From NCBI RefSeq assembly GCF_034480035.2, contig NZ_CP118753.2, positions 1,258,677 to 1,322,676 on the forward strand: DNA of 64,000 bases. Direction: 5' to 3'. The notes under the pieces are model-generated. The model saw nothing but the letters and a program-made list of their open reading frames with translations, was not told the DNA's origin and did no database searches. Shown piece after piece: positions 617-54,304 of this stretch. Within the stretch, counting starts at the first letter, position 1. Each line of letters begins with the position of its first letter. A program made the position numbers and the translations under genes. The stretch comes from Methanosphaera sp. ISO3-F5 (GTDB taxonomy: Archaea > Methanobacteriota > Methanobacteria > Methanobacteriales > Methanobacteriaceae).

Positions 617-802
617 AATTATTTCACTCCAATATGTGTTTTACAATTATATGTTATGTGAGAGGTATCAATGTTTGCTGAAAATCATATGTTTTAATAA
701 GAATATATTGCAAAGTAATAATATAATAATTTAATAACCTTTATATACTTTAATAATATATAATAATAAATGCAAAAAAAATAAAAGGAATGAAAAAATA
801 AA

Positions 803-1033
803 ATGAAAAACAACCTATACAAATCAATACTAAAAAGCATACTCGTAAACAAAAAAGTCGGAACAACCATAACAAGCAAAAAACACGAAAAACTACAACT
901 ATGGAAAAACGAACTAAAACCATACCTAGACAAACTAGCAAAAATGGGATACATCGACGGAAAATGGAAAACAATAAACATAAACCTCAAAATACTAAAA
1001 CCAATAAACACAAAAACCATAACCCAACTATAA
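803..1033 (+). CDS. Small basic hypothetical protein
   Basis: A 76-residue Lys/Asn/Ile-rich protein of unknown function. It starts with ATG but has no strong ribosome binding site (only AAAGGAATG about 15 bases upstream). It lies in a + strand segment that is almost devoid of T and G, so part of its amino-acid make-up is driven by base composition. The middle (KLQLWKNELKPYLDKLAKMGY) reads like a genuine amphipathic helix pair. It may be a real small protein or a chance open frame in an A+C-rich block. Confidence 0.45.
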   Translation: MKNNLYKSILKSILVNKKVGTTITSKKHEKLQLWKNELKPYLDKLAKMGYIDGKWKTININLKILKPINTKTITQL

Positions 1034-1139
1034 AAAAACCACACACAAACCCCCCCAAAAAACAAAAAAAAGACAAATAAAACTAAATAAAAAACAAAAC
1101 AAAAATAACAAATAACACAAAAAAAGGAAACAAAAGAAG

Positions 1140-1571
1140 ATGATATACGACTACCAAATGCACAAAGAAATAGAAGAAATGATACACGAAAGAAAACTCT
1201 ACGAACACAAATACAACAAAGGAAACGAACTAATAAAAGTACAAGAAAGCCTAAACAAAAGAATCATAACACTAAAACAACAACTACTAGACGACCCAGA
1301 AAACCCAAACCTCAACCTAGAACTCGGATTCTGCGAATCAGAAGTAGAAAGACTAAAAAAAGAACTAGACGAATTCCAAGACAAATACGAAAAAAAAGAA
1401 ATCAAAATAGCAATACACGAAAACATAATGGAATTCAACATAAAAGAACTAACCCGATACATAGAATACCTAGAAGAACTAGAAATCGACGAAGTACTAC
1501 TAGAAGGCATAAAAAACACAACAGAATCACTAGAATACAACCTCGCAATGCTAAAAATACTACAAAAATAA
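1140..1571 (+). CDS. Coiled-coil hypothetical protein
   Basis: A 143-residue, strongly charged and almost wholly helical protein. Heptad-like Glu/Lys/Leu runs extend from about residue 5 to 140, with one break at DDPENPNL (~residues 51-58). No catalytic motif is visible. AAAAAAGGAAA lies about 10 bases before the ATG. The regular coiled-coil pattern with acidic and basic residues balanced is unlike the Thr/Asn/Gln noise expected from the local A+C-rich bias, so I think the gene is real. Its partner and function are unknown. It sits in a row of small + strand genes at 803-2326. Confidence 0.6.
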   Translation: MIYDYQMHKEIEEMIHERKLYEHKYNKGNELIKVQESLNKRIITLKQQLLDDPENPNLNLELGFCESEVERLKKELDEFQDKYEKKEIKIAIHENIMEFNIKELTRYIEYLEELEIDEVLLEGIKNTTESLEYNLAMLKILQK

Positions 1572-1729
1572 CCCCCCACACCCCTCCACACCAATAAACA
1601 AAAACTTAACCAAACTACACTAATTCTTAAAAAAAGTAATACCAAAATATCAAACAAACAACAAAAAAGTAATACAAAAACCAAAAAAATCAATAACTTA
1701 ATAAACAATACAAAACAAAAATATAACAC

Positions 1730-2200
1730 ATGAATATGAAAAAAACACAAAAAAGTAATAACACACTAACCCAACAAACACAAACACTACAAAACATCAT
1801 CACAACACTAAACAACACAAACACAAACAACTTCACAAACACAATAAAACAATACGGAACAATCAACTACACCAGAACACAATACCTACCACAACTATCA
1901 AAAACAATAACCGAAAACCCACAACACCAAAACAAACTATACAACTACACAACACTAGAATCAATGATACTAGACCTACTAGAACACATAGAATCAAACA
2001 CAATCAAAACAATAGAAAACACACCCACCAACCAACAAAAAACCAAAACACAAATACAATACACAACACAACTACTCACACTACTACAACAAACACTAAC
2101 ACAAACCAACCAAGAAACAATAACACAAACAATACTACAAACACAAAACCAATACTACCAACTAATATACAACGAAAAAACAGACACAAGAATCAAATAA
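1730..2200 (+). CDS. Low-complexity Thr/Asn/Gln-rich hypothetical protein
   Basis: A 156-residue open frame in which Thr, Asn and Gln dominate and Gly, Val and Ala are nearly absent. The coding strand contains very little G or T. A helical, Leu-containing core (ESMILDLLEHIES, LLTLLQQTL) suggests a possible real coiled-coil protein. There is no signal peptide or known domain. The composition is what strand-biased mutation would give, so it could be a strongly drifted relative of the 1140-1571 protein or a non-coding open frame. The next gene, a 34-residue membrane protein, begins 21 bases after it. Confidence 0.4.
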   Translation: MNMKKTQKSNNTLTQQTQTLQNIITTLNNTNTNNFTNTIKQYGTINYTRTQYLPQLSKTITENPQHQNKLYNYTTLESMILDLLEHIESNTIKTIENTPTNQQKTKTQIQYTTQLLTLLQQTLTQTNQETITQTILQTQNQYYQLIYNEKTDTRIK

Positions 2201-2221
2201 AACAAAAAAAGGAGAAAAAAA

Positions 2222-2326
2222 ATGAACACACAAAAACAAGAAAAACAAAAAGAAATACCAAAAATAATCATACTACTCCTAACATTCTTCCTGATAAAAA
2301 GTCTACTACTAATATACCTATTATAA
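2222..2326 (+). CDS. 34-residue single-span membrane microprotein
   Basis: A very short frame, ATG at 2222 and TAA at 2324-2326. It has a textbook ribosome binding site, AAAAGGAG ending at 2214, with an 8-base spacer. The protein has a charged N-terminus (NTQKQEKQKEIPK) followed by about 19 hydrophobic residues, mostly Ile and Leu, which form one transmembrane helix. It follows the 1730-2200 frame by 21 bases and is probably co-transcribed with it. Its last 6 bases overlap the 3' end of the convergent radical SAM gene. The function is unknown. A small membrane peptide such as a toxin or membrane-complex subunit is possible, but nothing proves it. Confidence 0.5.
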   Translation: MNTQKQEKQKEIPKIIILLLTFFLIKSLLLIYLL

Positions 2327-4050: not shown

Positions 4051-4791
4051 ATGTCTTTTATTGATATCGATAAATTTATTAAAGCTACCTATAAATCCAC
4101 TAATAACGATTTAATATTGGATTTTTACAATATTGTTTTATCAGAATCTGTAAAATATGATAGAATTACAGGTTTTTTTAGTTCATCTAGTTTAGCTGTT
4201 GCAGCTTCAGGAATAGTTAACCTTATAGATAATAATGGTCATATGCGACTTTTATGTGGTTCAACATTAAATGACGAAGATACGGATGCAATTTTAAATG
4301 CAGATGATTTAAAAAATTTAATTAATTCTAAATTTTTAAAAGATATAGATAATATCGAAAATAAAATTATTGACGATCATGTAAAAATATTAGGTTGGAT
4401 GGTTGCCAATGATATATTAGATATTAAAATAGGTGTTAAAAAAACAAAATCTGGTTATAGTTCATCAAGCATGTTACATTCTAAAATTGGTATTTTATAT
4501 GATTCTAATCAGAATATAATAACATTTGATGGTTCTGTTAATGAAACAGCAAATGGTTGGATTAATAATATAGAATCACTAAAAGTTTTTAAAAGTTGGA
4601 AAGATTTTAAATTCATGCAAGAAGATATTGATGATTTTAATAAATATTGGGAAGGTAAAGAAGATTCTTTAGAAGTTTTTGATATCCCTGAAGCTTCTAA
4701 AAAATGTTTAGGCACTGTTCAGAATCTATGGGAATGTTGGTTTTTTGGGATTGATTTTGAAGAAGTTGTTGATGGGTTTTTTGTTTTGTAG
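4051..4791 (+). pseudogene. 5' half of a PLD-helicase gene, cut off by an insertion sequence
   Basis: Codons 1-220 (4051-4710) encode a phospholipase D-like nuclease domain. HxK is at His143/Lys145 (LHSKIGILYD), followed by DGSVNET, the usual HKD-type continuation. The frame then enters the insertion sequence and adds 26 foreign residues before a stop at 4789-4791. If the element (4711-6468) and one copy of its 7-base duplication are removed, codon 220 joins 6476 in frame. The product would then be a continuous ~685-residue PLD plus SF2 helicase protein. The two halves show no other mutation, so the insertion looks recent. The PLD fragment may still be made as a stand-alone protein. Confidence 0.85.
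4704..4710 (+). repeat. Left copy of 7-bp target-site duplication (ATGTTTA)
   Basis: ATGTTTA directly precedes the left end of the insertion sequence and is repeated directly after its right end. In the intact gene it encodes part of Lys-Cys-Leu at the PLD-helicase linker. Confidence 0.85.
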
Positions 4792-6468
4792 TACGTTTCT
4801 GTGGATCCATCGTATTCTTGCACTTTTAAGTCTTCTCTTTAGTCCTCGTATTGTTCTGTATCTTCTTTTTAGTTGACGTGGAAGTGTTGTTTTGAAGTAT
4901 AATTCTATTATGTTGTTGGTTTTTGGTATTGCTTCGTTGTTTAGGTATTGTGTTAGTTCGTTGAAGTTATTTTTAATTCTTTTGATGCTAGTTGCTACTG
5001 AATCTGGTAAAAACTGTATATTGTTGGTTAAGTGTGATAGGCGTCCTTTTGCTAGTTTTATGTTTTCTGCTTTGAATATGTTGGATATTCTTTCAAGGTA
5101 GTTGTTTAGTTCTTTGATCTGTTTTTTGTTGTGTTTTATTTGTTTTTTTATGTTTTTGATTTCTTTTTCTAGTGTTTTGATGTCATTGTGTAGTTTTTTC
5201 TGTTTTTTATCTGTTATTGGTCCCATGTGTGGTTTGTATTTTTCTAGTTTTTTATGTATTTTTTCGTTGATTTCTTCTAATTTATGGTATTTTCCATTGT
5301 TTTTACGTGTGATTCTTCGGATAACTGGATATACTTCCATTCCTACGTTGTACATCATGTGAAAGACGCATCTTTGTTGTATCATGTTAAATTCTTCTAT
5401 TATAGGAGGATAAGCTGAATATCCGTCGGTTATCATTATTTCATGTGGTATGTCGTCCAGTATTTGGTGGAAATATTTTTCAATAATTTCCGTGTCAAAT
5501 AGTGTTGCATATTCCAGAAAATCTTCATAAGGATATTGGGTATTTGCATCAATAATCATTAACCGTGACATATATTCTCCATTTTGTGATGGAAATTGCT
5601 CATCATAGTGATATTTGCCACTATCTTTAAGATTTTCTTTTTCTACTTGTTGTTCTACCTGTTTTTCTTTTTCTTCAAGGTATGAATCTGCAGTATTATT
5701 TTCATGATAAAAAACCGTAGATTTTGGTAAATGTATATCAAAAAGTGCTTCAAACAATTCAGACTTCTTTTCATATGATTCTTCACCAATCTCGGATAAT
5801 TTAACACCCCACTCTTTAACAGTAGAAGTATAAACAGAATAATTATCAATAAATTCATTAAAATTAGTTACAATACGATTACCACATTCTGGACAGGAAT
5901 AATCCTTAACACTAACAGGAATGCCATTAGGTTTACGAGTATGATAACCCTTAGAATGTAATTTACAACCACAATCACCACATACTTCATCAGTAAGAAC
6001 ATAAGTAACCTTAAAATCAAGTAAACCCATCATTTTAAAGATTAATAAAAAATCAGGAGATAAACAATCAGGAAAAATAATTTCATCAATATCACCAGAA
6101 ACGATATCTTTAAGACAAGTTAAATCTAATATATTATTGGTAAGAGTTTTATTCGACTTCATAATAATATATATTACTCTTACCACTATTTATAGACTTA
6201 TACAAACTTAAAATTAGAAATACAAAACAGAACAAAATCCATACAAATAAACAAGTTGATAAATATCAGATATTAACTAAAACAGTACATATAACACAGT
6301 ACAAAAAATAAAACAAATAATCACCAATTTAAACAAACATATAAGAACATAACTACTTTTAATTAAATAACAACACTCATTTAATCAACAAAAAATAAAA
6401 CTAATTTATTCTATCAAAAATTTTAAGAAAACAAGAAAAATTCATCCCCATGATTATTAGATAGTACC
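4711..6468. mobile_element. Insertion sequence, 1758 bp, with imperfect terminal inverted repeats
   Basis: The left end begins GGCACTGTTCAG and the right end, read inwards on the other strand, begins GGTACTATCTAA. Over the first ~26 bases, 16 match, including GG, ACT and an inner ATGGG block. Direct 7-base duplications (ATGTTTA) flank it exactly. One transposase gene fills most of the element on the - strand, and its stop codon lies 15 bases from the left tip. The family is uncertain. A zinc-ribbon N-terminus plus a DDE core suggests an ISM1/ISNCY-like or ISL3-like relative. A comparison with ISfinder would settle this. Confidence 0.9.
4726..6162 (-). CDS. DDE transposase of the insertion sequence
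   Basis: A 478-residue transposase. A zinc ribbon (CGDCGC ... CPECG) lies at about residues 65-100, probably followed by a helix-turn-helix. The candidate catalytic acids are Asp in LMIIDANTQYP, Asp in MITDGYSAYP and Glu in TNNIIELYF. CVFHMMYNV follows the second Asp, a C/H pattern seen in several DDE transposase families. A Lys-rich coiled-coil insertion lies before the final Glu. I prefer the ATG at 6160-6162 over an upstream GTG (6184-6186). The gene is intact, so the element is probably still mobile. It is transcribed against the defence operon it interrupts. Confidence 0.88.
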   Translation of the reverse strand: MKSNKTLTNNILDLTCLKDIVSGDIDEIIFPDCLSPDFLLIFKMMGLLDFKVTYVLTDEVCGDCGCKLHSKGYHTRKPNGIPVSVKDYSCPECGNRIVTNFNEFIDNYSVYTSTVKEWGVKLSEIGEESYEKKSELFEALFDIHLPKSTVFYHENNTADSYLEEKEKQVEQQVEKENLKDSGKYHYDEQFPSQNGEYMSRLMIIDANTQYPYEDFLEYATLFDTEIIEKYFHQILDDIPHEIMITDGYSAYPPIIEEFNMIQQRCVFHMMYNVGMEVYPVIRRITRKNNGKYHKLEEINEKIHKKLEKYKPHMGPITDKKQKKLHNDIKTLEKEIKNIKKQIKHNKKQIKELNNYLERISNIFKAENIKLAKGRLSHLTNNIQFLPDSVATSIKRIKNNFNELTQYLNNEAIPKTNNIIELYFKTTLPRQLKRRYRTIRGLKRRLKSARIRWIHRNVLQNKKPINNFFKINPKKPTFP

Positions 6469-10475: not shown

Positions 10476-10484
10476 GGTGTTTAA

Positions 10485-12779: not shown

Positions 12780-12780
12780 T

Positions 12781-19324: not shown

Positions 19325-19587
19325 TATATAAAATGATGTATAAATATCCTATTAAAAATAATTTATACTAAAGATTATATTATTCTATTCATACAATATA
19401 TCTTTTTATTCTTTTTTTATTATTAGTACATTTTTTTATTAATAGCTCTGAAATAATAAAATATGCTATAAATACAGAACAATTACTTCGTATTCTAATT
19501 ATATTACATATATTAAAAAATTGAAAAATAATTTGTGGATTTTGGAGGGTAGGTGGATAAGATATGTTTCCATATCTATTCTTTTTT
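19325..19587. other. AT-rich convergent intergenic region
   Basis: About 260 bases between the end of DptH and the convergent PH-domain gene. Several T tracts (e.g. CTTTTTATTCTTTTTTT at 19409-19425) could end transcription rightwards. The right edge marks the start of the strongly G+T-rich block on the + strand. No gene is seen. Confidence 0.4.
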
Positions 19588-19995
19588 TTAGTCGCATAGG
19601 TAGTGTTTTTTGATTAGTTTGACTATTTGTTTGGCTTCTTGTGTTTGGTTTGATGGTACTTTGAAGGTTATTGGTACGTTTACTGATCCTCCTTCTGGTA
19701 GTATTTCGGGGTTGTTTGTTACTCCTATTTTTATGTCTGCGTCTATGTCGAATGTTCCTGCTGTTTCGAATGATATTGTTCTGATTGTTTTTTTGGGGAA
19801 GAATTTTACTTCTACTTTTTTTCCGCTGAGTCCTTGTATGTCTACTAGGTATATTCCTAGGTTTGTTAGTATTATTGAGTCTCTTAGGAAGTGGAATGAT
19901 TGTATTACTGTTTCGTTTTCGAATAGGTATTCTTCTATTATGCTTATGTCTCCGCCTATGTCTGCGTGTCCGATTACTTGGCTTAGGAATCCCAT
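19588..19995 (-). CDS. Bacterial-type PH domain protein
   Basis: A ~135-residue protein that fits the bacterial pleckstrin-homology (bPH_2/DUF1696) fold: HADIGGDISIIEEYLFENETVI at the start, strand-rich centre (DSIILTNLGIYLVDIQGLSGKK) and an amphipathic C-terminal helix. Members of this family are small cytoplasmic or membrane-associated proteins of unclear role. I use the ATG at 19993-19995 because GGTGA (20005-20001) lies 5 bases upstream; the longer frame would begin at a GTG inside that site. It stands alone. Confidence 0.8.
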   Translation of the reverse strand: MGFLSQVIGHADIGGDISIIEEYLFENETVIQSFHFLRDSIILTNLGIYLVDIQGLSGKKVEVKFFPKKTIRTISFETAGTFDIDADIKIGVTNNPEILPEGGSVNVPITFKVPSNQTQEAKQIVKLIKKHYLCD

Positions 19996-20096
19996 GTGTT
20001 TCACCTTTTTTTTGTTTGTATGTTTATGTGTTTGTTTTTGTTTTTATTTATTTTTTTGTTGTATTGTGTGGAAAAAAAGTATAGGGTGTGGGTGTT

Positions 20097-20681
20097 TTAG
20101 AGGGGTAGTTTTATTTTGTTTTTTGTTTTTTGTGGTAGGAATGATAGTATTATGCTTAGTAGGCAGGTTATCATTATTGCTGGTGGGTAGTATGTGTATG
20201 CTATGATGTATCCTATTGTGTATAGTATTGTTGTGAATATCATATTTTGTTTTGTGTTTTTTAGTTTTAGTCGTAGTGCTATGTTTGCTGGGTCTTTTCG
20301 TATTAGTAGTTGGTCTACTATGTAGAAGTTTATGTTTGTTAGGAAGAAGATTAGTCCGAACATTGCTTGTGCTGTGAATGAGTTCATGTTTGTTGATAGC
20401 ATTGTTGTTGCGTGTGGTAGTAGGCCTATTATCATCATGCTTATTGCGCTTGCCCATGTGATTGTGCTGTCTAGTTTGTTTACTACGTTGAATAGTGTGT
20501 GGTGGTAGTTCCATAGGTTGAAGCATATTAGGAAACTTGTTGTGTATGCTATGAATTCTGGGTTTAGTTCTAGTAGGCTTGTCCAGGTGGGTGTTGCTGG
20601 TAGTGGTATTTCCATTACTATTATTGTGATGATGATTGCTAGTATTGCATCTATTAGTGCTTCGAATCTTTCTGTTTGCAT
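20097..20681 (-). CDS. TMEM175-family membrane protein (DUF1211), copy 2
   Basis: A 194-residue integral membrane protein with about six hydrophobic helices. The first helix carries RFEALIDAILAIIIT, the form here of the FSDAxxAIxxT filter-helix motif of TMEM175 potassium channels. Prokaryotic TMEM175 proteins assemble as tetramers and conduct K+ without the classical TVGYG filter. Here the usual Ser in FSDA is Ile (LIDA), a common archaeal variation that may alter selectivity. The ATG overlaps the stop of the preceding paralogue (TAATG), so translation is coupled and the two may form hetero-oligomers. Confidence 0.83.
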   Translation of the reverse strand: MQTERFEALIDAILAIIITIIVMEIPLPATPTWTSLLELNPEFIAYTTSFLICFNLWNYHHTLFNVVNKLDSTITWASAISMMIIGLLPHATTMLSTNMNSFTAQAMFGLIFFLTNINFYIVDQLLIRKDPANIALRLKLKNTKQNMIFTTILYTIGYIIAYTYYPPAIMITCLLSIILSFLPQKTKNKIKLPL

Positions 20682-21262
20682 TAGTTTTCACCTGTTTTGT
20701 ATGTTTCCTGGTAGTGTGTTAGGAGGTTCCATGTTATTATGGTTAGTAAGCATATTATCATCATTATTATTGGGTATCCGTGTGTTGCTATTATTGCTCC
20801 TATTATGAATAGTGTTGTGTTCATGATGAATATTTTGTTGTAGCTTATTTGTTCTAGTAGTGTGTTGTGTGTGTCTTTTTTTATTGTTAGTGCTGTTGAT
20901 ACTACGAATAGTATGTTTACTATGAAGAATATGAATCCGAACATTATTTCGGGTACTAGGTCGTATGGTTTGTGTGCTACCCATGCTGTTAGGTATGGTA
21001 CGAATGTTGTGAAGAATATGAGTACTGAGTACATCCATATTACGTGGTCGTCTATGTTTTGTACTTTTTCGAAGAATTTTCTGTGGTGGTCCCATATGCT
21101 GAATAGTACTATGAAGCTTATTATGTATGCTAGGTACATTATTTTGAGGTCCCATATTCCCGTGAAGGTTAGTGTTTCGGGTTGTGGTATTTTAAGTACC
21201 ATTACGGTCATCATTATTGCGAGTATTGCGTCGATGAATGTTTCGAATCTTTCTGTTTGCAA
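20681..21262 (-). CDS. TMEM175-family membrane protein (DUF1211), copy 1
   Basis: A 193-residue paralogue of the downstream gene, with the same RFETFIDAILAIMMT first helix and about six transmembrane segments. The start is a TTG at 21262-21260, fixed by a strong GAGGTGA (21273-21267) 4 bases before it; no ATG is available. The N-terminal sequence MQTERFE is identical in both copies, so the pair arose by tandem duplication. The predicted role is K+ or cation conductance in the cytoplasmic membrane. Confidence 0.82.
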   Translation of the reverse strand: MQTERFETFIDAILAIMMTVMVLKIPQPETLTFTGIWDLKIMYLAYIISFIVLFSIWDHHRKFFEKVQNIDDHVIWMYSVLIFFTTFVPYLTAWVAHKPYDLVPEIMFGFIFFIVNILFVVSTALTIKKDTHNTLLEQISYNKIFIMNTTLFIIGAIIATHGYPIIMMIICLLTIITWNLLTHYQETYKTGEN

Positions 21263-21327
21263 TATGTCACCTCTTTTTTTTGTATTGTTGTATATTATTG
21301 TTTTTTGTTTGTTTTGTTATTTTATTT

Positions 21328-21915
21328 TTAGTATAGTAGTGCCATGAGTAGTGTTAGGTTTGTGGGTAGTTTTCCTTCTCGGATCCATTTTATTTCTTCG
21401 TTGAATTCTCCTCTGAGTGTTTCTGTGACTAGTCCTCCTATGGATTCTATGCTGTTTCTTAGTTTTTCTGGGTGTTTGCATGGCTTGTTTTGTGTTCTTG
21501 TGCATGTGTTGCAGTGTGTGCAGTATCCTGCGGAGAGTATTCTTCCATGGTATTTTTTTTCTTCTTGTTCTAGTTTTTCTTGTAGTTTCTTTTTTTCCTG
21601 GAATAGTGTGTTTTCTATTATTTTGTTTAGTTGTTCTGGTGTGTACTGGTTTTGTTGTGCTTTTTGTGTGTAGTTTATTTTTGTCATTATTAGTTTTATG
21701 TTTTTGTAGTTGTTCCATTGCTTGTAGGGGTTGTCATGGAATTCTGGGCATGCCCAGTTTTTTGAGTAGTTTGGGCATTCTTTGCATGCTTTCATTGTTG
21801 CTTCTTTGTCTATGTATTTTTGTTGGTATTCTTGTGTGGTTATTGTTTTGGTGTGTTGTTCTGGTGTGTATAATTTGTTTATTTCTTCTTGGTTCATATC
21901 TTTTTTTGCCCCCAT
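21328..21915 (-). CDS. DUF2284 Cys-rich metal-binding protein
   Basis: A 195-residue soluble protein. The N-terminal half has CKECPNYSKNWACPEF and the C-terminal half has CTHCNTCTRTQNKPCKHPEK followed by SIESIG, the arrangement of DUF2284 predicted metal-binding proteins. These cysteines probably hold an Fe-S cluster or zinc. Two starts are possible, the ATG at 21913-21915 and one six codons later. Neither has a close ribosome binding site. The gene lies head-to-head with the 22032 gene across a 116-base divergent promoter region. Its role is unknown; related proteins occur widely in anaerobes. Confidence 0.8.
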   Translation of the reverse strand: MGAKKDMNQEEINKLYTPEQHTKTITTQEYQQKYIDKEATMKACKECPNYSKNWACPEFHDNPYKQWNNYKNIKLIMTKINYTQKAQQNQYTPEQLNKIIENTLFQEKKKLQEKLEQEEKKYHGRILSAGYCTHCNTCTRTQNKPCKHPEKLRNSIESIGGLVTETLRGEFNEEIKWIREGKLPTNLTLLMALLY

Positions 21916-22031
21916 TTTTTCGGTTTTTTTGTGGTTATTTATTGTTTTTGTTTTTTATTGTATGATTAATTTTATGTTGTTTGAATGAGATAGTTAATAG
22001 TAGGAATTTATAATTTTTTTTATGTGATATT

Positions 22032-22487
22032 ATGGCAGTTAAAAATCCAGGATTTGATGGCTTAATTGGTGATGTACCATATGAAACTCTTAAACTTGAT
22101 GGCGGAGTTAATCTTGTAGTTGAATATCTTAGGACTCGTAAGTCTAAGGAGAATGATGGTAAGACTGGTCGTTTCACTAGTCCTTATCGTAGAATTACCC
22201 TCTTTGCTGGTGATGAGATCTTATCGGATAATGTTGAGATTAATCCTTATTTTGTGGATGATATCTTGGATGATTCTTTGAATACTATTCATGAGGGTTT
22301 GTCTCTTGGTGAGATTAAGAAGAGGATTAGTGATGATGAGGGTTATCTTGTTGTTTTATGGACTCGTGGCCGTACTCCTTTGCCTGTTGAGTTGGGTAAT
22401 TTTAAGGATTTGGTTCTTGAGAGGATTGATAGTGTTGATGATCTTACCAGTTTGACTATTGAGGTTGTTAATTCTTTTAGTGATTGA
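22032..22487 (+). CDS. Hypothetical soluble protein
   Basis: A 151-residue acidic protein that I do not recognise. It has no signal peptide or membrane span. The sequence alternates short strands and helices (VNLVVEYLRTRKS, PYRRITLFAGDE, EGYLVVLWTRGRTPLPVE), so it is probably an alpha/beta fold. ATG at 22032 with a weak GTGAT upstream. From about codon 40 the coding strand becomes strongly G+T-rich, in line with the surrounding block and in contrast to the divergent neighbour. It is probably specific to Methanobacteriales, but this is a guess. Confidence 0.7.
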   Translation: MAVKNPGFDGLIGDVPYETLKLDGGVNLVVEYLRTRKSKENDGKTGRFTSPYRRITLFAGDEILSDNVEINPYFVDDILDDSLNTIHEGLSLGEIKKRISDDEGYLVVLWTRGRTPLPVELGNFKDLVLERIDSVDDLTSLTIEVVNSFSD

Positions 22488-22972
22488 TGATTATTTTTTT
22501 TTACAAAAATATTATTTGTTTAATAATTGTACAAACCTTTATATACTATGAAGATAAACATTAATATGTACAATATATGTACAAGTTGTGTATATTATAT
22601 GTACAAAAAGTATTTCTTTAAACACAAACTAAGAAAAAAAAATCCTAAAAATCATAAACACGGAAAGTTTTATTGAAGAACCCTCCCAAAAAAAAAAAAT
22701 AATAATAAAATAAATATATTCCCAAACCATAAGAAACAAATACAATACAAAGATTAATCCAAAATTTATATAACTTGTAGCAATATCCCCCTAAACCCGA
22801 ATAAAAACTACAAGCACAAAGGATAAACTGACAACTTCAATAAAACTTCTATACATTACTTTTTTTAAACATAAACACAAATCATAGTAAAAAAAATGTT
22901 CCAACCCACTAAAAACTATAAATACCCACAAAAAAATAAACATAATACAATAAAATTAATGGGACAAAAACT
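22488..22972. other. Long leader or possible ncRNA region with operator-promoter
   Basis: A 485-base region without a convincing open frame. It contains a promoter with phased TGTACA boxes at its left end (separate entry) and a second TATA-like TTTATATAAC near 22765. An inverted pair, CTTGTAG (22774-22780) and CTACAAG (22808-22814), could form a 7-bp stem. A transcript from the left promoter would run ~400 bases before the next start codon at 22973, so it may be a long leader or a separate RNA. A weak TATA (ACTATAAATACC, ~22914-22925) lies closer to that start. Confidence 0.35.
22528..22605 (+). promoter_or_regulatory. Promoter flanked by four phased TGTACA palindromes
   Basis: TGTACA occurs at 22528, 22567, 22578 and 22600, each followed by A (extended consensus TATGTACAA in the last three). 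The last three are 11 and 22 bases apart, so they face the same side of the helix. A good TATA box (TTTATATAC, 22538-22546) lies between the first and second sites, which puts the expected start point near 22570, on top of the second site. This is the layout of a repressor array. The regulator and the controlled transcript are unknown. Confidence 0.5.
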
Positions 22973-23712
22973 ATGAATAAGAAAATAATATTATTCACAG
23001 CAATAACCATAACAATAATATGCCTATTAAACACCACAACAGCAACCAACACAAACAACATCCAATCCAACATAACAAACAACCCCGACAACCTCACCCA
23101 AAACAACCAACACACAAACCAAAACCACACACCACCACCATATAAAACAAACACAACCAACAACACCACAAAAAAAGAAAACAACACACCACTAGACAAA
23201 TCAAGGCCAATATACTTCGCAATGGACCACACCAACAACAAAGACGAAGAAATACTCAAAACAATCACAAACAAACTAGAAGCTGAAGGATTCAACATAG
23301 TAAGCGCAGAAATAGGACCAAACAAAATGTCACAAAACACACACTACCTATACGAACACAACATAACAAACGCAATAATATTCCACCTATTCAATGGAGC
23401 AGACCCATCCACCATAAGAGAACTAGCAACAAACGGAACAGACAACAGGGGCAGAACAGTAAGAAAAAGAGGAAACCAGTAGTACTAGCATGGTTCTATG
23501 ACAGCATAGACTGTGTAAACGACAATGCCAGCGGCACAGCATACATATACGCAAGCGAAACAGGACCAAGACTAGAAAACCCCAAACAATACATGGAAGA
23601 AAACGACATAATCGCAATATGCACCAGCAGCGACAACGGAAAACACAAAGAAAACGCAGACTACACAGGAGAAAAAACCGCAGAAGAATTCATAAAACTC
23701 TTCGAAGAATAA
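22973..23712 (+). pseudogene. Frameshifted secreted protein with the RPIYFAMDHT domain
   Basis: A signal peptide (MNKKIILFTAITITIICLL) is followed by an Asn/Thr/Pro-rich linker and, from about residue 77, a domain beginning RPIYFAMDHTNNKD. The frame breaks near 23477: compared with the intact paralogue at 27276-29465, one base is missing after GGA AAC. In the next frame the sequence continues as VVLAWFYDS ... SETGPRL ... ICTSSDN ... FIKLFEE and stops at 23710-23712. Both halves therefore match the paralogue and only one base is lost. A single-base sequencing error would also explain it. Unlike the paralogue, this copy has no Ig-like repeats. The function of the domain is unknown. Confidence 0.82.
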
Positions 23713-23977
23713 ACAAAAAAATAACACATAAAACACCAAAATACTAAACTTTATTTTAATTATTTTTTTTAACTAAATACTATAGGTGTAAAATTAGTAA
23801 ATATTATACACAAATAATATAACAGAATAATTATTCAACGCAAAAGTTTAAACAAAGCATAGATAAGTACTAAAGCACTAATTAATAATATAATCCTATT
23901 AGAAAAAAAGATTTGAATAAAAGAAAAAATAGGAAGAAATTAAAAGGTGATATATGTTTTCATTAATTCTATCTTAA

Positions 23978-26146
23978 TTAATAAAAATACTCAGCATCTT
24001 CGCGTTTAGATAATTGTTTCAATTGTAACTCTATTTTATATGGAGTTAACTTTGGATCATGTTTAATAACAACACTAAACTTATTTTCAATAGTTCCATT
24101 TATTGTTTTTGTTTGATTTTTACTGTTTTTTAGATAAAGTTTTGCTCCAACTATTTTATTTACTGGTAGAGCATCATAAATTAAAAGATTATTTACTTGT
24201 GCTTCAATTTCCCCATAATCCTTATTACCATTATTATATATTATATATTTTTCATATTCATTGGATATTTCTGAACGATGCTTTTTAATCGGTAAAACCA
24301 CTTTAGATGCTGTTTTGTTATAAACATAAAATGTAGTAGAGTTTATTGTTTCATGAAAATCCTGATTTTCTGATAACTTGATAGTTACTTTATTGGTTCC
24401 TACAAGATTAGTCTTATAATAAACACTGAAATGACCATCATCGTCAAGTTTAGCTTTTTGTGTCTTATTTTCATTATTGAATCTTGCTTCAAGAGTAATA
24501 TTATTTAAATCAATATACACTTCATCAAAACCATAATAAGCATCAGTAGGTATTATCTCTCCATAGATATATACAGTTTCACCTACTTTTAAAGGCATGA
24601 TATCAGTCCCTATATATAATTCTGGCATAAATTTTGCAGATGTATAATTTTTAATTCTTTTTGCAGGTGCAAATATTTCATTTCCTTCAAATACAACTAT
24701 TAACTGATTTGATCCTGCTGATAATAATGTTTTCTTACAATCAAATTTTCCTTTTTCATCAGTCATCCATTGATACATATAGCCATACTGTCCATACCTT
24801 ATTTTATACTCAGATAATGATGGATAAACATATACAAATTCCTCCTTCACTGGATTACCATCTTCATCTGTAATTTTTCCTCTTACACATATACTTTTTC
24901 CTGCACGAAGCTTGCTCTCGTTTAATATTTTGAATGTTATTATTGTATTTATACGATTTACTTTGAATGTAGTTTTTGTTTTTGTGGACAAGTAGTTGGC
25001 ATTACCAGGAGAAATTACTGTTATATTATTGGTTCCTGTTTTGTTTGCCTTTATTGTTTTTTGGAATGCTCCTGTTTTATCTGTTTTAATAATATATTTT
25101 TGGTTGTTTATTTTTAGTTGTATTTTTTTGCTAATTACTGGTTGGTTTTTTATGTCTACAAGTTTACCAGTTATTTTTACATTCTTTTTGACTGTTGCAT
25201 TTGTAATATTGTTAAGGATTATTTTTGTCGGATTTCTATATACACTGAATTTTGTATGGTTTTTATTTTGGTAATATATGTCACTTACTAGTACTGCTTC
25301 TATTGTATGATTTTTTGTTGTTCCATCATTATTTATTGCTTTCATTACTTGTGGTATTGTATAATTGTATGTTGCCTTGTTGTTTTCTATTTCTACAAGT
25401 ATTTTTTTTCCTTTATTGTTTTTTAATGTTTTTCCATCTATTTTGAACAGTACTTTTGATCCAGTGTTTAATGCCGTTTTGTTTTTATGTCCTAGTGTTG
25501 TGTCTTTTATTATGGTTTTGATTGTTATTGTTTCGTAGTGTTTTTGTTTTTTGGGTGTTGCTGTTACTGTTAGTTGTGCGTTTCGTTTCTTGATTTGTGC
25601 TGTAACTATCCTACTTTTGGCAGCAGTATACTGTTTTGTTCCACTGTATATCGCAGTTATGTTTTTAATGTTTCGTAGGTATAGGTCTGCTGTGATTGTT
25701 ATTCTTACTTTTCCGTTTTTTACCAGGAATTTCCATGGTGTTTCTGAGCTGCTGAAGCTTCCATCTTTTTTCAATGTTTTACTATTTAGTTTGAATACCA
25801 GGTTTCCACCAGTAACTGGTTTGTCTTCGTTGTCTGTGATGTTTGCTTTTAATGTTATGTTTTCTCCTACTATTCCACTGATTGAGTCAACAGTTATTTT
25901 TACATTCCTTTTTCTTGTGTTTCTATTGTTTGCTGTTTTAACGTTTTTATTATTATTTGTTTTTATTGTTTTTTGTGAGGTTTTTATATTATTATTTATT
26001 TCTTGACTGGATGGATTTATTGTTTGTTGTGCTTGTTTTTCTATCGTGTTGTCTTGTTCGTTTTGTACTTCACTTGCACATGCTATTCCAATCATTAACT
26101 GTAATAATAAAATAAATAATAATATCATTTTAGTATTTTTATTCAT
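23978..26146 (-). CDS. Secreted adhesin-like protein with Ig-like repeats
   Basis: A 722-residue exported protein. A signal peptide (KMILLFILLLQLMIGIACA) is followed by a Lys/Asn/Gln-rich linker to ~residue 75. Then come about six Ig-like (Big_3/Big_5-type) beta-sandwich repeats; repeat starts are marked by phrases such as VDSISGIVGENITLKANITD, ITGKLVDIKNQPV and VRGKITDEDGNPV. No transmembrane anchor or cell-wall motif is obvious at the C-terminus. GAGGTAAT lies upstream of the ATG. Proteins of this type are abundant on Methanosphaera and Methanobrevibacter cells and probably bind other cells or host glycans; the ligand is unknown. Confidence 0.82.
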   Translation of the reverse strand: MNKNTKMILLFILLLQLMIGIACASEVQNEQDNTIEKQAQQTINPSSQEINNNIKTSQKTIKTNNNKNVKTANNRNTRKRNVKITVDSISGIVGENITLKANITDNEDKPVTGGNLVFKLNSKTLKKDGSFSSSETPWKFLVKNGKVRITITADLYLRNIKNITAIYSGTKQYTAAKSRIVTAQIKKRNAQLTVTATPKKQKHYETITIKTIIKDTTLGHKNKTALNTGSKVLFKIDGKTLKNNKGKKILVEIENNKATYNYTIPQVMKAINNDGTTKNHTIEAVLVSDIYYQNKNHTKFSVYRNPTKIILNNITNATVKKNVKITGKLVDIKNQPVISKKIQLKINNQKYIIKTDKTGAFQKTIKANKTGTNNITVISPGNANYLSTKTKTTFKVNRINTIITFKILNESKLRAGKSICVRGKITDEDGNPVKEEFVYVYPSLSEYKIRYGQYGYMYQWMTDEKGKFDCKKTLLSAGSNQLIVVFEGNEIFAPAKRIKNYTSAKFMPELYIGTDIMPLKVGETVYIYGEIIPTDAYYGFDEVYIDLNNITLEARFNNENKTQKAKLDDDGHFSVYYKTNLVGTNKVTIKLSENQDFHETINSTTFYVYNKTASKVVLPIKKHRSEISNEYEKYIIYNNGNKDYGEIEAQVNNLLIYDALPVNKIVGAKLYLKNSKNQTKTINGTIENKFSVVIKHDPKLTPYKIELQLKQLSKREDAEYFY

Positions 26147-26324
26147 TTTATTACCTCTTATGATTTTTTAGATTATTTTATGATTTAATCTATATTGTTA
26201 TATTTGATTTTGTTATAATATGTACTTGTTTATGTTTTTTTCGTTTGATTATTTTATCATTTTTCTGGATTGGTTCTTTCTTTTGACTTTATACTATGTT
26301 TATTTTTTGTAATGGTTTTGATTG

Positions 26325-27053
26325 TTATTTTCCTTGTTCTCTTTTGTGGAGTAGTGTTAATGTGATTGTTGGTATTAGTATTCCTGCTAGTATTAAGCTT
26401 GGGTGTATTAGTAGTCCCATGATTATGAATGATATTCCACAAATTATTGTCTGTATTTTTCCGTGTTGTTTTGATTTTGTGTCTTCGTAGTATTGTAGTA
26501 TTATTGATAGTGATATTTCGATGCTTAAGCATAGTATGCCTGTCATGAATATGCTGAAGGTTAGGAAATTTTCTGGATCATAGTTTATTATGGCCGTTAT
26601 TGGGAGGATTATTGTTAGGGTTGATAGGATGTATCCTGTTATGATGAGTAGTGTGTGTGATTTTTTTGTTGTGTTTATGAAATTTTCTTTGGTTACTGTT
26701 TTTATGTCTGATGTTTCTGTTTTGGTGCTTTTGGTTTTTGGTATTTTGTCTAGTTGGTTTAGTAGTTCTTCGAGTATTGTGTTGATTGCTTGTTCTCCTC
26801 CTCTTGTTAGGTCCATGATTGCATGGGGGTAGTCTGCTGTGAATATGATTTTTGTTGTAGTGGGTGTGTTTTCTATTAGTGTGATGTGCATTATGAAAGT
26901 TTGATTGAATGTGTCTATTATTGTGTAGGTGTATGTGTATTGGTTGTATCTTCTTATTTTATAGTATTTATATGGGAATATGGAGTTTAGTTTTTTGTTT
27001 ACTGTTTCTAGGGGGTGTTCTAGGAGTATTTCTTTTGTTGTTTCGGCAAACAT
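26325..27053 (-). CDS. Membrane protein with soluble N-terminal domain
   Basis: A 242-residue protein. Residues 1-100 look like a compact alpha/beta domain (KEILLEHPLETVNKKLN ... FIMHITLIENTPTTTKIIF). Its amphipathic ending is followed by a Thr/Lys-rich linker and then four hydrophobic segments from ~residue 133 to 235. GGGTGAT just before the ATG supports the start. I do not recognise the family. The N-terminal part recalls SRPBCC/START-like folds, but this is weak. It sits between two secreted-protein genes and is transcribed with the upstream adhesin orientation, 178 bases away from its start. Confidence 0.7.
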   Translation of the reverse strand: MFAETTKEILLEHPLETVNKKLNSIFPYKYYKIRRYNQYTYTYTIIDTFNQTFIMHITLIENTPTTTKIIFTADYPHAIMDLTRGGEQAINTILEELLNQLDKIPKTKSTKTETSDIKTVTKENFINTTKKSHTLLIITGYILSTLTIILPITAIINYDPENFLTFSIFMTGILCLSIEISLSIILQYYEDTKSKQHGKIQTIICGISFIIMGLLIHPSLILAGILIPTITLTLLHKREQGK

Positions 27054-27275
27054 TTTTTTTAATCACCCATTTTTATTGTATGTGACATTTCTCTTTTATT
27101 TTATAGAGATTATTATATTAAATATTTTTTATTAATTAAGTGTCAATATTGTGATTTTAGTTTAAATTTTATGATTGTTATTTTTTTCTTGTTTATTGGT
27201 ATGTTTTTGTTCAAAGTTTTAAGTAGTAGTAATGATATACATATTATCTAACGAAAATTTTTTTATGGTAATTTA

Positions 27276-29465
27276 ATGAGAGGTAAGAAATTTAAGTTTT
27301 TCTTCCTGACTTTTACATTTTTATTATTTTTAGCTTGTTTATCTGGTATTCATGCTAGTAATGATACTGGTGATTTATTAGTTGATGATGGTAAATGTAT
27401 TTCTAAGTCTGTGGAGAATAAAAATATTAAAGAAGATTCAGATGATAAAGATGAATTAGACGTTACAGTAAATGAAGTTGAAAGTAAGGATTACCTATCA
27501 TACACTAGCATTACTGGTAATATATTTACTGATGATGACGATTTACCAGAAGAGTCATACATACACCTATATGTTGATGGTAAGAAACAGTCCCATAATG
27601 CTTTCAAATTATATGACAACGGAAACTATAAATACACAACAAAACAAAAAATAGGAAACCACACATTCAAGATACACATAAACGACCCCGAATACAAGAC
27701 AAGAACAGCCACAACAAACTTCACAGTAACCGACAAAATCAAACCAATACTAAACAAGTCAAGACCAATATACTTTGCAATGGACCATACCAACAGCAAA
27801 GACAAAAAAATATGTAACAACATAGTAAGCAAACTAAAACAGGAAGGATTCAAAGTAGTACGATACAGGATAGGACCAAACGCAATGTACCAGAACATGC
27901 TATACCTGTACAAACACAAAATACACAATGCAATAATGTTCCACCTCTTCAATGGAGTAGACCCATCCAATATCAGAGAAGTAGCAGCGAACGGTAACGA
28001 TAACAGGGGACGAATAGTAAGAAGTCGTGGAAATGATGTGGTACTCGCATGGTTCTATGATGCATCCGACCCTATACATGTGGGAGGAAACTGTTACAAG
28101 TCAGTAAGAGGTAGTGAAACAGGATCCAGACTATACAATCCAAAGGAGTACATGGACAAAAACAACATATACTATATATGCACTAGCAGTGACCACAGAA
28201 AACATAAGAGCACGGCAGACTATAATGGAGACATGACAACACTGGAATTTATGAAACTATTCACAGAAGACAAAAGCCTGAAATATCATACAACAACAAA
28301 GGCAAAGGTAAGCTTAACAGATGACTACTTGGTTACAGTGACAGGAACAGTTAAGTATCCAACCAGTACCGTGAACGGATACCTTGATATTAAGGACAGT
28401 AACAATAAAACATTATCTGATAATGTAATGGTAAAAGATAATAAATTCTCAACACAATTTATGTTAAAAAGTATTGGAAAACAAAATCTCCGAGTAACCT
28501 ATAAGGGATCCGCACTATATTCAGAGAGTAATCAGACAGTTACTGCAACAATAAGTGTGAAAAATGCCACAATAAATGTGGCACAGGAATCCAACCTTGT
28601 TGAAGACAACAGTGTAAGCATATCATTAACAGAACCTAACACGGATGAAATACTTGTAGATCAACTGGTAAAGGTTACATTTGATGGTGTAACACGTGAA
28701 TATCGTACAAATAGTACTGGTAGTGTGCTTGCACAACTTGATGTTAAGAAAAGTCAGAGGATTGTCATACAGGTATATCATGACAACAGGCTACTTAATA
28801 CCAGCAGGTTTTATGTTAAGGTTTACAAGGATAATGTAACAGTAAAGCTAGATAATATTAAGGCAGTGACTGGTAACAGGTTTATGCTTAGAGCCAATGT
28901 AACGGATAGTATGGGTAATCCTGTTAAGTCTGGTTATGTTGTGTTTAAGTTGAATGGAAGAAGCTTTAGAGAAGGTGATTCCTTTAATACCAGTAATCCT
29001 ATACGAAAATTTAAGGTTAAGAATGGTGTTGTGAATTATTATTTGACTGCTGATGTTAAATTTAATGCTAAAAACTTTGTAGCAGTTTACCTGGGTAATT
29101 ACAGGTATCATTACGGTAAGTCAAGCCTTGTTAAGGCTGTAATTACTAGAAGGTATGCTAAGATTAATATTAGTTATTCTGATGTTAGTAAGGGGAGTAT
29201 GAGTTTTGTCACTAAAGTTATTGATACTAAGAAAGATGTGGGTTTACTTCAGAAAAAATCCGTCATCCATGTTAAAATTAGTAATAAAGATATTGGTTTG
29301 GATAAAACGGTTAATCTTCATGTTAATAAGACTGGTATGGCAGAGTATTCATTACGTTTACCGGCTAGTCTTGTCAATAATTCTAAGATAAAGTTAAATA
29401 TTAGTGCGGAGTTTGTCAGTGATTATTATTATACTGCCCGTAAAAATAGGAAGGTTATTATCTAA
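27276..29465 (+). CDS. Secreted protein with RPIYFAMDHT domain and Ig-like repeats
   Basis: A 729-residue exported protein with a signal peptide (FKFFFLTFTFLLFLACLSG). One Ig-like repeat spans ~65-155. An unnamed ~170-residue domain spans ~161-333, from KSRPIYFAMDHTNSKD to FMKLFTED. It contains conserved blocks HLFNGVDPSNIREVA, DNRGRIVRSRGNDVVLAWFYD and YICTSSDHRKHK. Three to four further Ig-like repeats run to the end. The unnamed domain is shared with the frameshifted gene at 22973-23712. Invariant Asp, His, Arg and Cys residues suggest an enzyme or ligand-binding domain exposed at the surface. The codon choice swings from T-ending through A/C-ending (27600-28300) back to T-ending within this gene. 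Confidence 0.8.
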   Translation: MRGKKFKFFFLTFTFLLFLACLSGIHASNDTGDLLVDDGKCISKSVENKNIKEDSDDKDELDVTVNEVESKDYLSYTSITGNIFTDDDDLPEESYIHLYVDGKKQSHNAFKLYDNGNYKYTTKQKIGNHTFKIHINDPEYKTRTATTNFTVTDKIKPILNKSRPIYFAMDHTNSKDKKICNNIVSKLKQEGFKVVRYRIGPNAMYQNMLYLYKHKIHNAIMFHLFNGVDPSNIREVAANGNDNRGRIVRSRGNDVVLAWFYDASDPIHVGGNCYKSVRGSETGSRLYNPKEYMDKNNIYYICTSSDHRKHKSTADYNGDMTTLEFMKLFTEDKSLKYHTTTKAKVSLTDDYLVTVTGTVKYPTSTVNGYLDIKDSNNKTLSDNVMVKDNKFSTQFMLKSIGKQNLRVTYKGSALYSESNQTVTATISVKNATINVAQESNLVEDNSVSISLTEPNTDEILVDQLVKVTFDGVTREYRTNSTGSVLAQLDVKKSQRIVIQVYHDNRLLNTSRFYVKVYKDNVTVKLDNIKAVTGNRFMLRANVTDSMGNPVKSGYVVFKLNGRSFREGDSFNTSNPIRKFKVKNGVVNYYLTADVKFNAKNFVAVYLGNYRYHYGKSSLVKAVITRRYAKINISYSDVSKGSMSFVTKVIDTKKDVGLLQKKSVIHVKISNKDIGLDKTVNLHVNKTGMAEYSLRLPASLVNNSKIKLNISAEFVSDYYYTARKNRKVII

Positions 29466-34570: not shown

Positions 34571-35047
34571 CCCTAAGTCTAATTTTGTAATTTTTACTTG
34601 ATTTTTGATTAATGTAATTTTATTTTCCTTGATTTTTAATTTTGTTTGATAATTTTTTAAATAACTTTTAAGTCAGTATTATATGATAATTCATGATATT
34701 TATGAGTATTTTATTATAATTCTTTTGTGTAATGTTATTTTTTAATTTTATCTATGTACTTTTGGTGGTATTTGTTATTATGTATTTTATTGAATGAATT
34801 AATGTTTGTCTATATACTAACATTTTATTAGAAAATGTTGCATAAATATTTTTGTTTAAAATACAATAACCCTTTTAGATAAATATTCCTTATAGATTAC
34901 ACTATTGTTAAAAATATACTAAAATCCATAATAATATTAAAATCAATAAAAAATAATATAAAAAAATCTGAATAATATATAATTATTACTAATAATAATC
35001 ATGTTAATAAAAAAAAATAGTAAAATAGTTAAAAGAATTAAAATCTT
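34571..35047. other. AT-rich spacer upstream of mtaBC
   Basis: About 480 bases between the mtaB promoter and the end of the adhesin gene at 35048. It is very AT-rich, with no open frame, RNA gene or clear repeat visible. It could hold upstream regulatory sites for mtaBC and the terminator of the adhesin gene (T-rich on the leftward strand at ~35007-35016). Confidence 0.4.
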
Positions 35048-42940: not shown

Positions 42941-44320
42941 ATGAAAAATAAATCTGAAACATTAGTAATATTTGTATCTTTTATAACAACATTTTTTGCA
43001 GTGTTTTTATCTAATGGTGTTATAATTGGTGTTCCGATGATAGCAGAGGAGTTTGTGATGAATAATGTCCTGCAGAACTGGGTATCTACACTGTTCTTCC
43101 TTGTCGTGGCTGTTTTCACTGTTCCAGCAGGACAAATTTCTGGTAAATATGGTGTGAAGAGAACATTAACTGCGGGCGTAATGGTTTTCCTGTTGGGTTC
43201 CTTATTGGCTTGTGTATCATTTTCTGCTGAATTCTTTCTTATGTTTAGAATAATGCAGGGCGTAGGTGTTGCATTCCTGAATGTGTCTTCTATGGCTATG
43301 GTTGTACAGGCGGTTAATCCAGAGAATCGTGGAAGAGCGTTGGGTTATACTGTTACTGGAGTGTATCTTGCCACTTCATTGTCTCCTGTTATTTGTGGTT
43401 ATCTGGTGGATAATTTTGGTTGGAGATCAATGTTTTTATCTGTTATACCATTTCTTGTATTTTGCATATTATTATTGGTGCTTGAAATGCCACAGGAATG
43501 GAAGACTTATGAAGATGATAAGATTGATGTGATTGGTTCGGTATTGTATTCTATGGGTATTTTATTATTTATTTATGGTTTCACTACTGTGCTTTCCATG
43601 AATGGCTTAGTATTGACTTTGCTTGGTATTATCTTGCTGGTATTGTTTGGTTGGTATGAGTTGGGTCTTGATTCTCCAGTTTTTAATATGAAATTGTTTA
43701 GGAATAAGAAGTTTACTTCATCGAATATTGCTGCTTTATGTGGTTATCTGGCTATTATGGTTATTACTACTATTCTTAATTATCATTTCCAGTATGTGAG
43801 GGGTTGGAATGCTCAGATGTCTGGGTTGGTTTTGATTGTTACTCCTTTGGTTATGGCGGTTATTGCTCCTAATGCTGGTAAGTTATCGGATAGGATTCAT
43901 CCTCAAAAGTTGGCTGCTCTGGGTATGGGTATTACTAGTGTGTCTTTGTTGATTCTTGTGTTTTTAAGTGGTGATACTCCAGTGTATGTTGTTGTTTTGT
44001 CAATGCTTTTGGAGGGTGTTGGTATGGGATTGTTTTCTAGTCCTAATATGAATGCTATTATGAGTTCTGTTCCTCCGGGGGATGCTCCTACTGCTTCTGC
44101 GTCTCAGGCTACTATGCGTACTATTGGTCAGACTATGAGTTTGGGTTTGTTGACTTTGGTGTTTGCCTGGGTTATGGGTAATTTGGAGATTAGTGTTCGG
44201 TATGCTGATTTGATTATTGGGTCTTCTCAGATTGTGTGTTTGGTTTGCACTGTTTTCTGTGTGGTTGCTGTGTTTGTTTCTCTTGTTGGTATTAGGTCTG
44301 GTGATGAGTTTATTTTTTGA
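42941..44320 (+). CDS. MFS drug exporter (EmrB/QacA, DHA2-like)
   Basis: A 459-residue membrane protein with 12-14 hydrophobic segments. MFS motif A appears as GQISGKYGVKRTL after the second helix. The motif C-like GVYLATSLSPVICGYLVDNFGWR is typical of drug/H+ antiporters of the EmrB/QacA group. It lacks any ATP-binding domain. It shares a 191-base divergent promoter region with the UvrA2-like gene. The substrate is unknown; toxic organic compounds are likely. The second half of the coding strand becomes strongly G+T-rich. Confidence 0.87.
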   Translation: MKNKSETLVIFVSFITTFFAVFLSNGVIIGVPMIAEEFVMNNVLQNWVSTLFFLVVAVFTVPAGQISGKYGVKRTLTAGVMVFLLGSLLACVSFSAEFFLMFRIMQGVGVAFLNVSSMAMVVQAVNPENRGRALGYTVTGVYLATSLSPVICGYLVDNFGWRSMFLSVIPFLVFCILLLVLEMPQEWKTYEDDKIDVIGSVLYSMGILLFIYGFTTVLSMNGLVLTLLGIILLVLFGWYELGLDSPVFNMKLFRNKKFTSSNIAALCGYLAIMVITTILNYHFQYVRGWNAQMSGLVLIVTPLVMAVIAPNAGKLSDRIHPQKLAALGMGITSVSLLILVFLSGDTPVYVVVLSMLLEGVGMGLFSSPNMNAIMSSVPPGDAPTASASQATMRTIGQTMSLGLLTLVFAWVMGNLEISVRYADLIIGSSQIVCLVCTVFCVVAVFVSLVGIRSGDEFIF

Positions 44321-44355
44321 TGGTTTGATTTTCCATCATTTAATTTTTTTATTAA
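44318..44355 (+). terminator. Terminator of the MFS gene
   Basis: TGATGG (44318-44323, starting with the stop codon) pairs with CCATCA (44333-44338) across a 9-base loop and is followed by a T-rich run (TTTAATTTTTTTATT). Confidence 0.5.
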
Positions 44356-44405
44356 AAAAAAAAGTTATTATATGGGGGGAGGGTTAGTGTTTTGTTCTTG
44401 TTTTT

Positions 44406-45704: not shown

Positions 45705-46005
45705 AATAAAAACTCCTATGTATTTTTTTATACATTGATGTTGATTTTTTCACATCTCTAATTATAATTAGTACATCATAGTATATAAATGTAATGCGAA
45801 AAGAAAACAATAATAAAATAATACTCAAAAATAATAACAACAAAACAAAAAAATATAAAAAAAGAGCCCTAAGAGACTTGGCATAAATTAGTTTCAAGAG
45901 AAAAAAAGTAATACTCGAAAAAATATTAACCTTTTTTTTCAAAATGATAACCAGCATTATGTCTTTGTTCAAATCAAATATAACAATACCCTTTTCTTTT
46001 ATTGT
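45705..46005. other. Spacer between trpB and tnpB with left inverted repeat
   Basis: About 300 bases. It holds the trpB promoter (rightmost ~60 bases of trpB upstream sequence), TTGGCATAAATT at 45878-45889 that reappears inverted at 47587-47598, and the 3' flank of tnpB where a guide RNA (omega RNA) would be encoded. No open frame is seen. Confidence 0.4.
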
Positions 46006-47602: not shown

Positions 47603-47636
47603 CCTAAGAAAAAAAAATAGAAAAAAAATAATAAAA
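47335..47636. other. Spacer between tnpB and histone gene
   Basis: About 300 bases. It contains TGGTAAGTAAT twice (47472-47482 and 47495-47505), 23 bases apart, and CCAAGA/TCTTGG (47461 and 47492) as a loose inverted pair. The right inverted repeat of the proposed element (47587-47598) also lies here. The histone gene ends at 47637. No open frame is seen. Confidence 0.35.
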
Positions 47637-54223: not shown

Positions 54224-54304
54224 ACCATAACCAAAATAAGGACCAATTAACATTAATAATATTATAAAAAGAATATAAATTATATTAAAAGAAGGATAAA
54301 AATT

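Follow-up and report, generated by a model that had tools for sequence, protein, structure and literature searches.

The question raised by this locus is whether the strong excess of G and T on the plus strand between about 19.55 and 22.5 kb, which is lost abruptly at about 22.5-22.6 kb, belongs to the genes that it covers or to the DNA in which they lie, and what process could have produced it. The locus is part of the window, i.e. the whole stretch of 64,000 nucleotides that we have analysed (C1:1258677-1322676 of the rumen methanogen Methanosphaera sp. ISO3-F5, a genome of 2,680,162 bases in two contigs), and genes have been called mechanically throughout the analysis. The earlier note had described the block as indifferent to gene direction, and our counts confirm both the block and its flip, more strongly than had been claimed. 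The G+T block (plus strand, 19531..22501; defined by synonymous sites, intergenic gaps, HMM segments and Pfam) covers four minus-strand genes, i.e. a PH domain gene (19588-20004), two genes of the TMEM175 family (20097-20681 and 20681-21262) and a DUF2284 gene (21328-21915), followed by a last, plus-strand gene (22032-22487). Within 19588-22487, 654 of the 687 synonymous sites are G or T on the plus strand: the counts are 112/112, 144/146, 137/141 and 159/168 in the four minus-strand genes (94.6-100%) and 102/120 in the plus-strand gene (85%), and the intergenic gaps inside the block are 78-84% G+T. The genes are considered real, because PH, TMEM175 and DUF2284 domains are matched by Pfam in the minus-strand genes and because orthologues exist in sister species. 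The block ends in a sharp, intergenic GT-to-AC flip, which we refer to as a “down” cusp (22502..22618 by the HMM; change-point estimate 22530, allowed range 22502-22602), and is followed by an A+C block (plus strand, 22619..23748; HMM and composition counts), where the next plus-strand gene (22973-23482) has G/T at 6 of 140 synonymous sites (4%) and the non-gene parts are 28% (intergenic 22601-22972) and 29% G+T (23483-23745). As a separate observation, this gene shares a domain (DKSRPIYFAMDHTN) with the plus-strand gene 27276-29465, and it is apparently shortened by a frame change, with the remainder running on to about 23.74 kb.

Blocks of both kinds recur across the window. An A+C block is located at 735..2250 (plus strand; HMM and composition counts), with only 0-6% G/T at 1730-2200, so that the A+C block previously placed at 0.78-2.33 kb is confirmed as 0.78-2.25 kb. 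A G+T block (24919..27418, plus strand; HMM and flip scan) extends up to the next down cusp, at about 27.6 kb, and the A+C block to the right of this cusp (27604..28516, plus strand; HMM, flip scan and counts) lies inside the plus-strand gene 27276-29465, whose 3' end returns to G+T; a flip inside this gene had been claimed and is confirmed. A weaker intergenic down cusp was found by the flip scan at 34743..34860 (refined estimate 34857). The G+T block at 43278..45699 (plus strand; HMM and counts) crosses the plus-strand gene 42941-44320 and the minus-strand gene 44406-45704, the quarters of which are 95-100% G/T on the plus strand; the claimed extent of about 43.3-46.6 kb holds as 43.3-45.7 and 46.1-46.6 kb, interrupted by a short A+C stretch at about 45.75 kb. 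The flip that had been claimed inside gene 42941-44320 was not found, as G/T climbs there from 61% to 93%, and the one claimed inside gene 46006-47334 is in fact the gradient of an insertion sequence, described below. The A+C block claimed for 49.9-54.2 kb holds in part: 50.8-51.2 kb is G+T, and a block covers the plus-strand genes 51833-52756 and 53039-54223 (51767..54375, plus strand; HMM and counts). Long neutral stretches are also present, e.g. at 6.5-19.5 kb. The stretch 6545-19324 is very A+T-rich (17-29% GC in 250-bp bins) and has little strand bias; among its six plus-strand genes are those for a helicase-like protein and an SMC-like ATPase, and one for a protein of 1734 aa in which a HerA-type motif can be recognised by eye. 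It resembles a recently acquired defence island, which is a possibility that its low strand bias would be consistent with.

Beyond the window, the bias has been analysed in two stretches of the chromosome, 0-800 kb and 1.1-1.5 Mb (1.2 Mb), with the other 1.3 Mb and the megaplasmid left out. The earlier note had inferred a regional mutational or repair process, had called for the skew to be compared with gene direction, replication and related genomes, and had named the absence of blocks beyond chance as a refutation. Such a refutation is not met: the variance of the bias in 500-bp windows is 15-18 times binomial in the two stretches. The bias does not track gene orientation either, the coding-strand bias of neighbouring genes being correlated positively on the same strand (+0.37/+0.33) and negatively on opposite strands (-0.28/-0.39); this is what is expected of a bias that is tied to the DNA rather than to the genes. 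Neighbours share the bias in all four orientations: across gene borders, the correlation is 0.35-0.46, alike for tandem, convergent and divergent pairs, and the signal fades over about 1 kb and is absent by about 2.5 kb. Intergenic DNA tracks the flanking blocks (r = 0.61 and 0.64), as do codon positions 1 and 2 (r = 0.39 and 0.58), so that the claim that protein make-up follows the blocks has also held. Because intergenic DNA and codon positions 1 and 2 follow the blocks, codon selection alone is ruled out as their cause, as is gene orientation; a regional, gene-independent bias is shown, and a regional mutational or repair process is supported, with import from skewed donors disfavoured. The blocks look like the product of an ongoing, strand-aware mutation process at fixed sites, which is not known to have been described for this archaeal group.

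The strong bias is restricted to one species. Its second genome, G010, is a goat-jejunum MAG that is about 97% identical to ISO3-F5 where the two can be aligned; it was assembled independently and has the same bias, which makes an assembly artefact unlikely. The variance over binomial is 15-20 in both genomes, as compared with about 5 in each of BMS and M. stadtmanae; other species that were sampled range over 0.8-9, the highest among them being G001 and G007, on only 20-33 kb. Genes at 0-8% in ISO3-F5 and G010 have mostly ordinary synonymous composition in G007, G008, G014, G017, G018 and G019; likewise, in the TrpB-like gene 44406-45704, 1% of the fourfold sites are G/T, versus 28% in its BMS orthologue (86% protein identity). 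Gene 22032-22487 is an exception, since its more distant homologues in G007 and G019 are also G/T-rich, while the closest one (G014) is ordinary. As orthologues in other Methanosphaera have ordinary composition, the bias arose in place in the species of ISO3-F5. Gene content for two candidate enzymes does not separate the species and is rejected as the distinguishing cause: a Y-family polymerase is absent from all 11 genomes searched, and a uracil-DNA glycosylase, which this species has, also occurs in some relatives that lack a strong bias.

The sharp flips, scored where both arms are opposed, are nearly all of one polarity. At a score of at least 0.2, GT-to-AC flips outnumber AC-to-GT flips by 17 to 2 (0-800 kb) and by 13 to 2 (1.1-1.5 Mb), i.e. 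30 versus 4 in total, and at a score of 0.15 the counts are 34 versus 9 and 19 versus 14; the third-moment asymmetry amounts to about 1.7 to 3.5 null standard deviations at lags of 300-1000 bp, the lowest of these values being from the second stretch. The GT-to-AC arrangement is unchanged by reverse complementation, and therefore marks a point from which something proceeds outward both ways. Outside insertion sequences, the mean profile climbs to the cusp and decays on either side; the best cusps decay symmetrically over 2-5 kb (the one at 401.3 kb is symmetric over about 5 kb), and the transition at some flips takes no more than tens of bases. For some cusps, definition and scoring relied on the same data, which inflates the mean profiles near their centres; the polarity counts and the strain comparison below are free of this inflation. 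Cusps are enriched in intergenic DNA (39% and 78%, against 14-17% of random points and 6-11% of opposite flips), and about half of 56 cusps lie within genes. The search for a shared motif at the cusps yielded nothing convincing once the number of tests was allowed for, repeated DNA was not in excess (15/56 versus 96/336 matched controls), and one repeat set resembling a CRISPR array is located at 726.9 kb. Separately, the intergenic cusps at C1 1159650 and 1232711 have in common a sequence of about 170 bp (about 70% identity). More copies of this sequence lie near 179.3 kb, and it may represent either a small mobile element or an RNA gene.

A gradient of the same polarity occurs within insertion sequences: all 28 of those examined in ISO3-F5, which belong to about eleven families, are rich in G+T on the left and in A+C on the right of their middle. 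Two are located on the minus strand of the window, each with a GT-to-AC gradient of its own: an element with an ISL3-like transposase (4711..6468; gene 4726-6186), where the gradient is centred near the middle, and a multi-copy element with a TnpB-type gene (45870..47623; gene 46006-47334), supported by a Pfam OrfB_IS605 hit at C1:1305084-1305422. When 200 kb of BMS are ranked by gradient, the top five genes are all transposase-like (four by family hits or homology, one by resemblance), so the transposase gradient is shared by members of the genus and could predate the genome-wide effect. It is not a general property of insertion sequences, being absent, with one mild exception, from eight elements of Bacilli, Butyrivibrio and Methanohalobium plasmids. 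The notion that cusps are former insertion sites is ruled out, as there is no net flip in the DNA flanking the 28 elements (0.005 +/- 0.038) or at 59 candidate element remnants, many of which are short translated hits. One cusp, at 537.4 kb, does fall on a remnant: within C1 536700-538000, the ends of a TnpB-type element are joined in a short remnant whose position coincides exactly with a strong cusp, and a second cdc6 gene is about 0.55 kb away. The one-sided polarity, the species restriction, the transposase gradient and the origin flip discussed below were all absent from the earlier note.

The comparison of ISO3-F5 with G010 has indicated that the process is probably still active, because the differences between the strains form strand-coordinated keto/amino patches. 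As the local bias rises, divergence increases from 4.3% to 5.7% at fourfold sites and from 1.1% to 1.4% at other coding positions. Neighbouring keto/amino differences share their sign far more often than by chance at distances of 4-20 bp (z 6.6) and of 20-60 bp (z 7.6), no such sharing being found in the same test for the control classifications, purine/pyrimidine and strong/weak; the patches span under about 100 bp, and in an intergenic stretch 70-240 bp to the right of one cusp, all 13 of 13 keto/amino differences are of one sign. Very short recombination tracts are not formally excluded and remain a possible source of the patches. If equilibrium is assumed, as it must be because two genomes cannot be polarised, the rates from A or C at fourfold sites are raised in strongly biased stretches, by about 2-4 fold for A>T, A>G and C>T, by about 2.8 fold for A>C and by 1.3 fold for C>A. 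In such stretches, G<->T differences are likewise more frequent, by about 4-fold.

The reading that we prefer, which is slightly more likely to prove wrong than right, is that clustered, strand-specific mutation acts around recurrent point sites in this species, most likely during the repair of breaks; the breaks, the resection, the single-strand exposure and the enzyme are all inferred. The effect would spread outward both ways from each site, fading over about 1-3 kb (up to about 5 kb), and on either side the strand with its 3' end toward the site would shift from A/C to G/T. Recurrent breaks would have their ends resected 5' to 3', and the 3'-ended strand, left single-stranded or extended by repair synthesis, would acquire several changes together; many such rounds, under purifying selection on the proteins, would lead to saturation at synonymous sites. 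Breakage and resection are favoured on two grounds: the polarity, the decay at the kb scale, the clustering of changes and their strand coordination are all predicted by them, and the same switch is seen in yeast. The model requires that opposite strands be changed on either side, with the 3'-ended strand mutated, and that clusters be strand-coordinated; both requirements are met, by the 30 versus 4 flips and by the sign sharing at 4-60 bp with null controls. Against it, the cusps have yielded no shared motif or repeat, so that it is unexplained why the sites are fixed; the insertion sequences have an element-wide gradient without a cusp in the surrounding DNA, although dispersed breaks within the elements would, as we infer, yield such a gradient; and the roughly 4-fold rise in G<->T exchange is not predicted by simple deamination and, like the species difference, is left unexplained by breakage alone. 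DNA synthesis would explain equally well why the origin is a flip and why the leading strand is A+C-rich.

DNA synthesis from fixed starts is, on account of that flip and of the leading-strand composition, a serious rival to resection: cusps might be points other than the main origin at which replication is initiated, by a secondary or a recombination-dependent route, and where the new leading strand drifts to A+C, so that G+T lies to the left and A+C to the right, a miniature of the sawtooth at mammalian origins. The chromosome starts at cdc6, and in the origin of the species (G010, L095 11300-12100) a long A+T-rich stretch upstream of cdc6 lies between five CAAGTGTAA repeats and an inverted set, a layout also found at the chromosome start of M. 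stadtmanae. The repeat array in G010, whose sequence includes the left side, is itself a down cusp, with arms like those of other cusps, and cusps of such strength occupy 1.1% of 500-bp windows. In both replichores, genes on the leading strand are rich in A and poor in T, so that the polarity of the flips matches the leading/lagging asymmetry of the chromosome; the amplitude is greater farther from the origin (rho 0.41, p 0.004), the second cdc6 gene (537.95-539.08 kb) lies about 0.55 kb from a cusp, and recombination-dependent initiation is possible in archaea (PMC12999951). However, the origin repeat occurs within 300 bp of none of 56 cusps, the bias is gone within a few kb and spares long stretches such as 6.5-19.5 kb, no comparable bias is found in M. 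stadtmanae on the origin side examined, and the cusp next to the second cdc6 sits on a TnpB-element remnant. We consider this explanation possible.

The remaining rivals are weaker. RecA-family proteins prefer GT-rich DNA, and GT-rich 3' ends that aid recombinase loading might have been selected at the flanks of break-prone sites; such selection would predict the same polarity, but it is unlikely, as the blocks diverge faster, codon positions 1 and 2 included, protein make-up is dragged along, sister species have the same genes without the bias, and the singletons among transposon copies number 42 and 42 in the two directions in the left half, with unequal per-site rates, as mutation bias predicts. 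Exposure during transcription, antisense transcription included, is likewise improbable: G+T enrichment of non-template strands is known (PMC10030826), and genes outside insertion sequences have a weak slope, with A+C towards their 5' ends and G+T towards their 3' ends, yet the bias should then follow gene direction and does not, being equally common to convergent, divergent and tandem neighbours, with many cusps within single genes and with the adjacent plus-strand genes 22032-22487 and 22973-23482 at opposite extremes. Least likely of all is a mosaic of DNA imported from strongly skewed donors, with the flips as recombination joints; the sharpness of some flips would suit it, but orthologues in relatives should then be absent or equally skewed, whereas they are present in several sister species with ordinary composition, the extreme bias being confined to the two genomes of this species, and neither the single polarity nor the coordinated patches are predicted. 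A bolder reading than break repair, possible but rather less likely than not, is that a species-restricted mutator turns A and C into G and T in one-strand patches at fixed sites, transposons included, by a polymerase or repair route without a described counterpart, the proteins persisting while synonymous sites approach saturation.

If the break-repair reading is true, recurrent break or initiation sites of an archaeon could be mapped from sequence alone to within tens of bases, strand-coordinated clustered mutagenesis would be a main shaper of a natural genome, the links among archaeal break repair, replication initiation and mutation could be tested directly, and what codon usage and protein composition mirror in such genomes may be position rather than function.

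Several known systems resemble these blocks in part. At the Haloferax volcanii origin (PMC12999951), also archaeal, the skew at third positions and in non-coding DNA, i.e. at near-neutral sites, has a polarity opposite to that of bacteria, but it is a genome-scale GC skew only, with no local keto/amino blocks reported in the sections bearing on skew. The transcription-associated G+T excess of non-template strands also places G and T on one strand and is ascribed to single-strand exposure, whereas the archaeal blocks ignore gene direction. The sawtooth at mammalian origins (Touchon et al. 2005, cited in PMC10030826) shares the sharp flips of one polarity, the gradual return and the irrelevance of gene direction; it differs in its scale, that of replichores or megabases and not of a few kb, while the archaeal cusps have no origin motif and the archaeal leading strand is A+C-rich. 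In yeast, bidirectional resection leads to changes of C on the left and of G on the right of a break, and 2-4 kb are resected in allelic conversion (PMC6786661); these break-induced clusters are alike in that the two sides change on opposite strands, with the same polarity, at the kb scale and in clusters, but they affect cytosine only, depend on an introduced deaminase and arise in single events, whereas in the archaeal blocks both A and C change, over evolutionary time and nearly to saturation.
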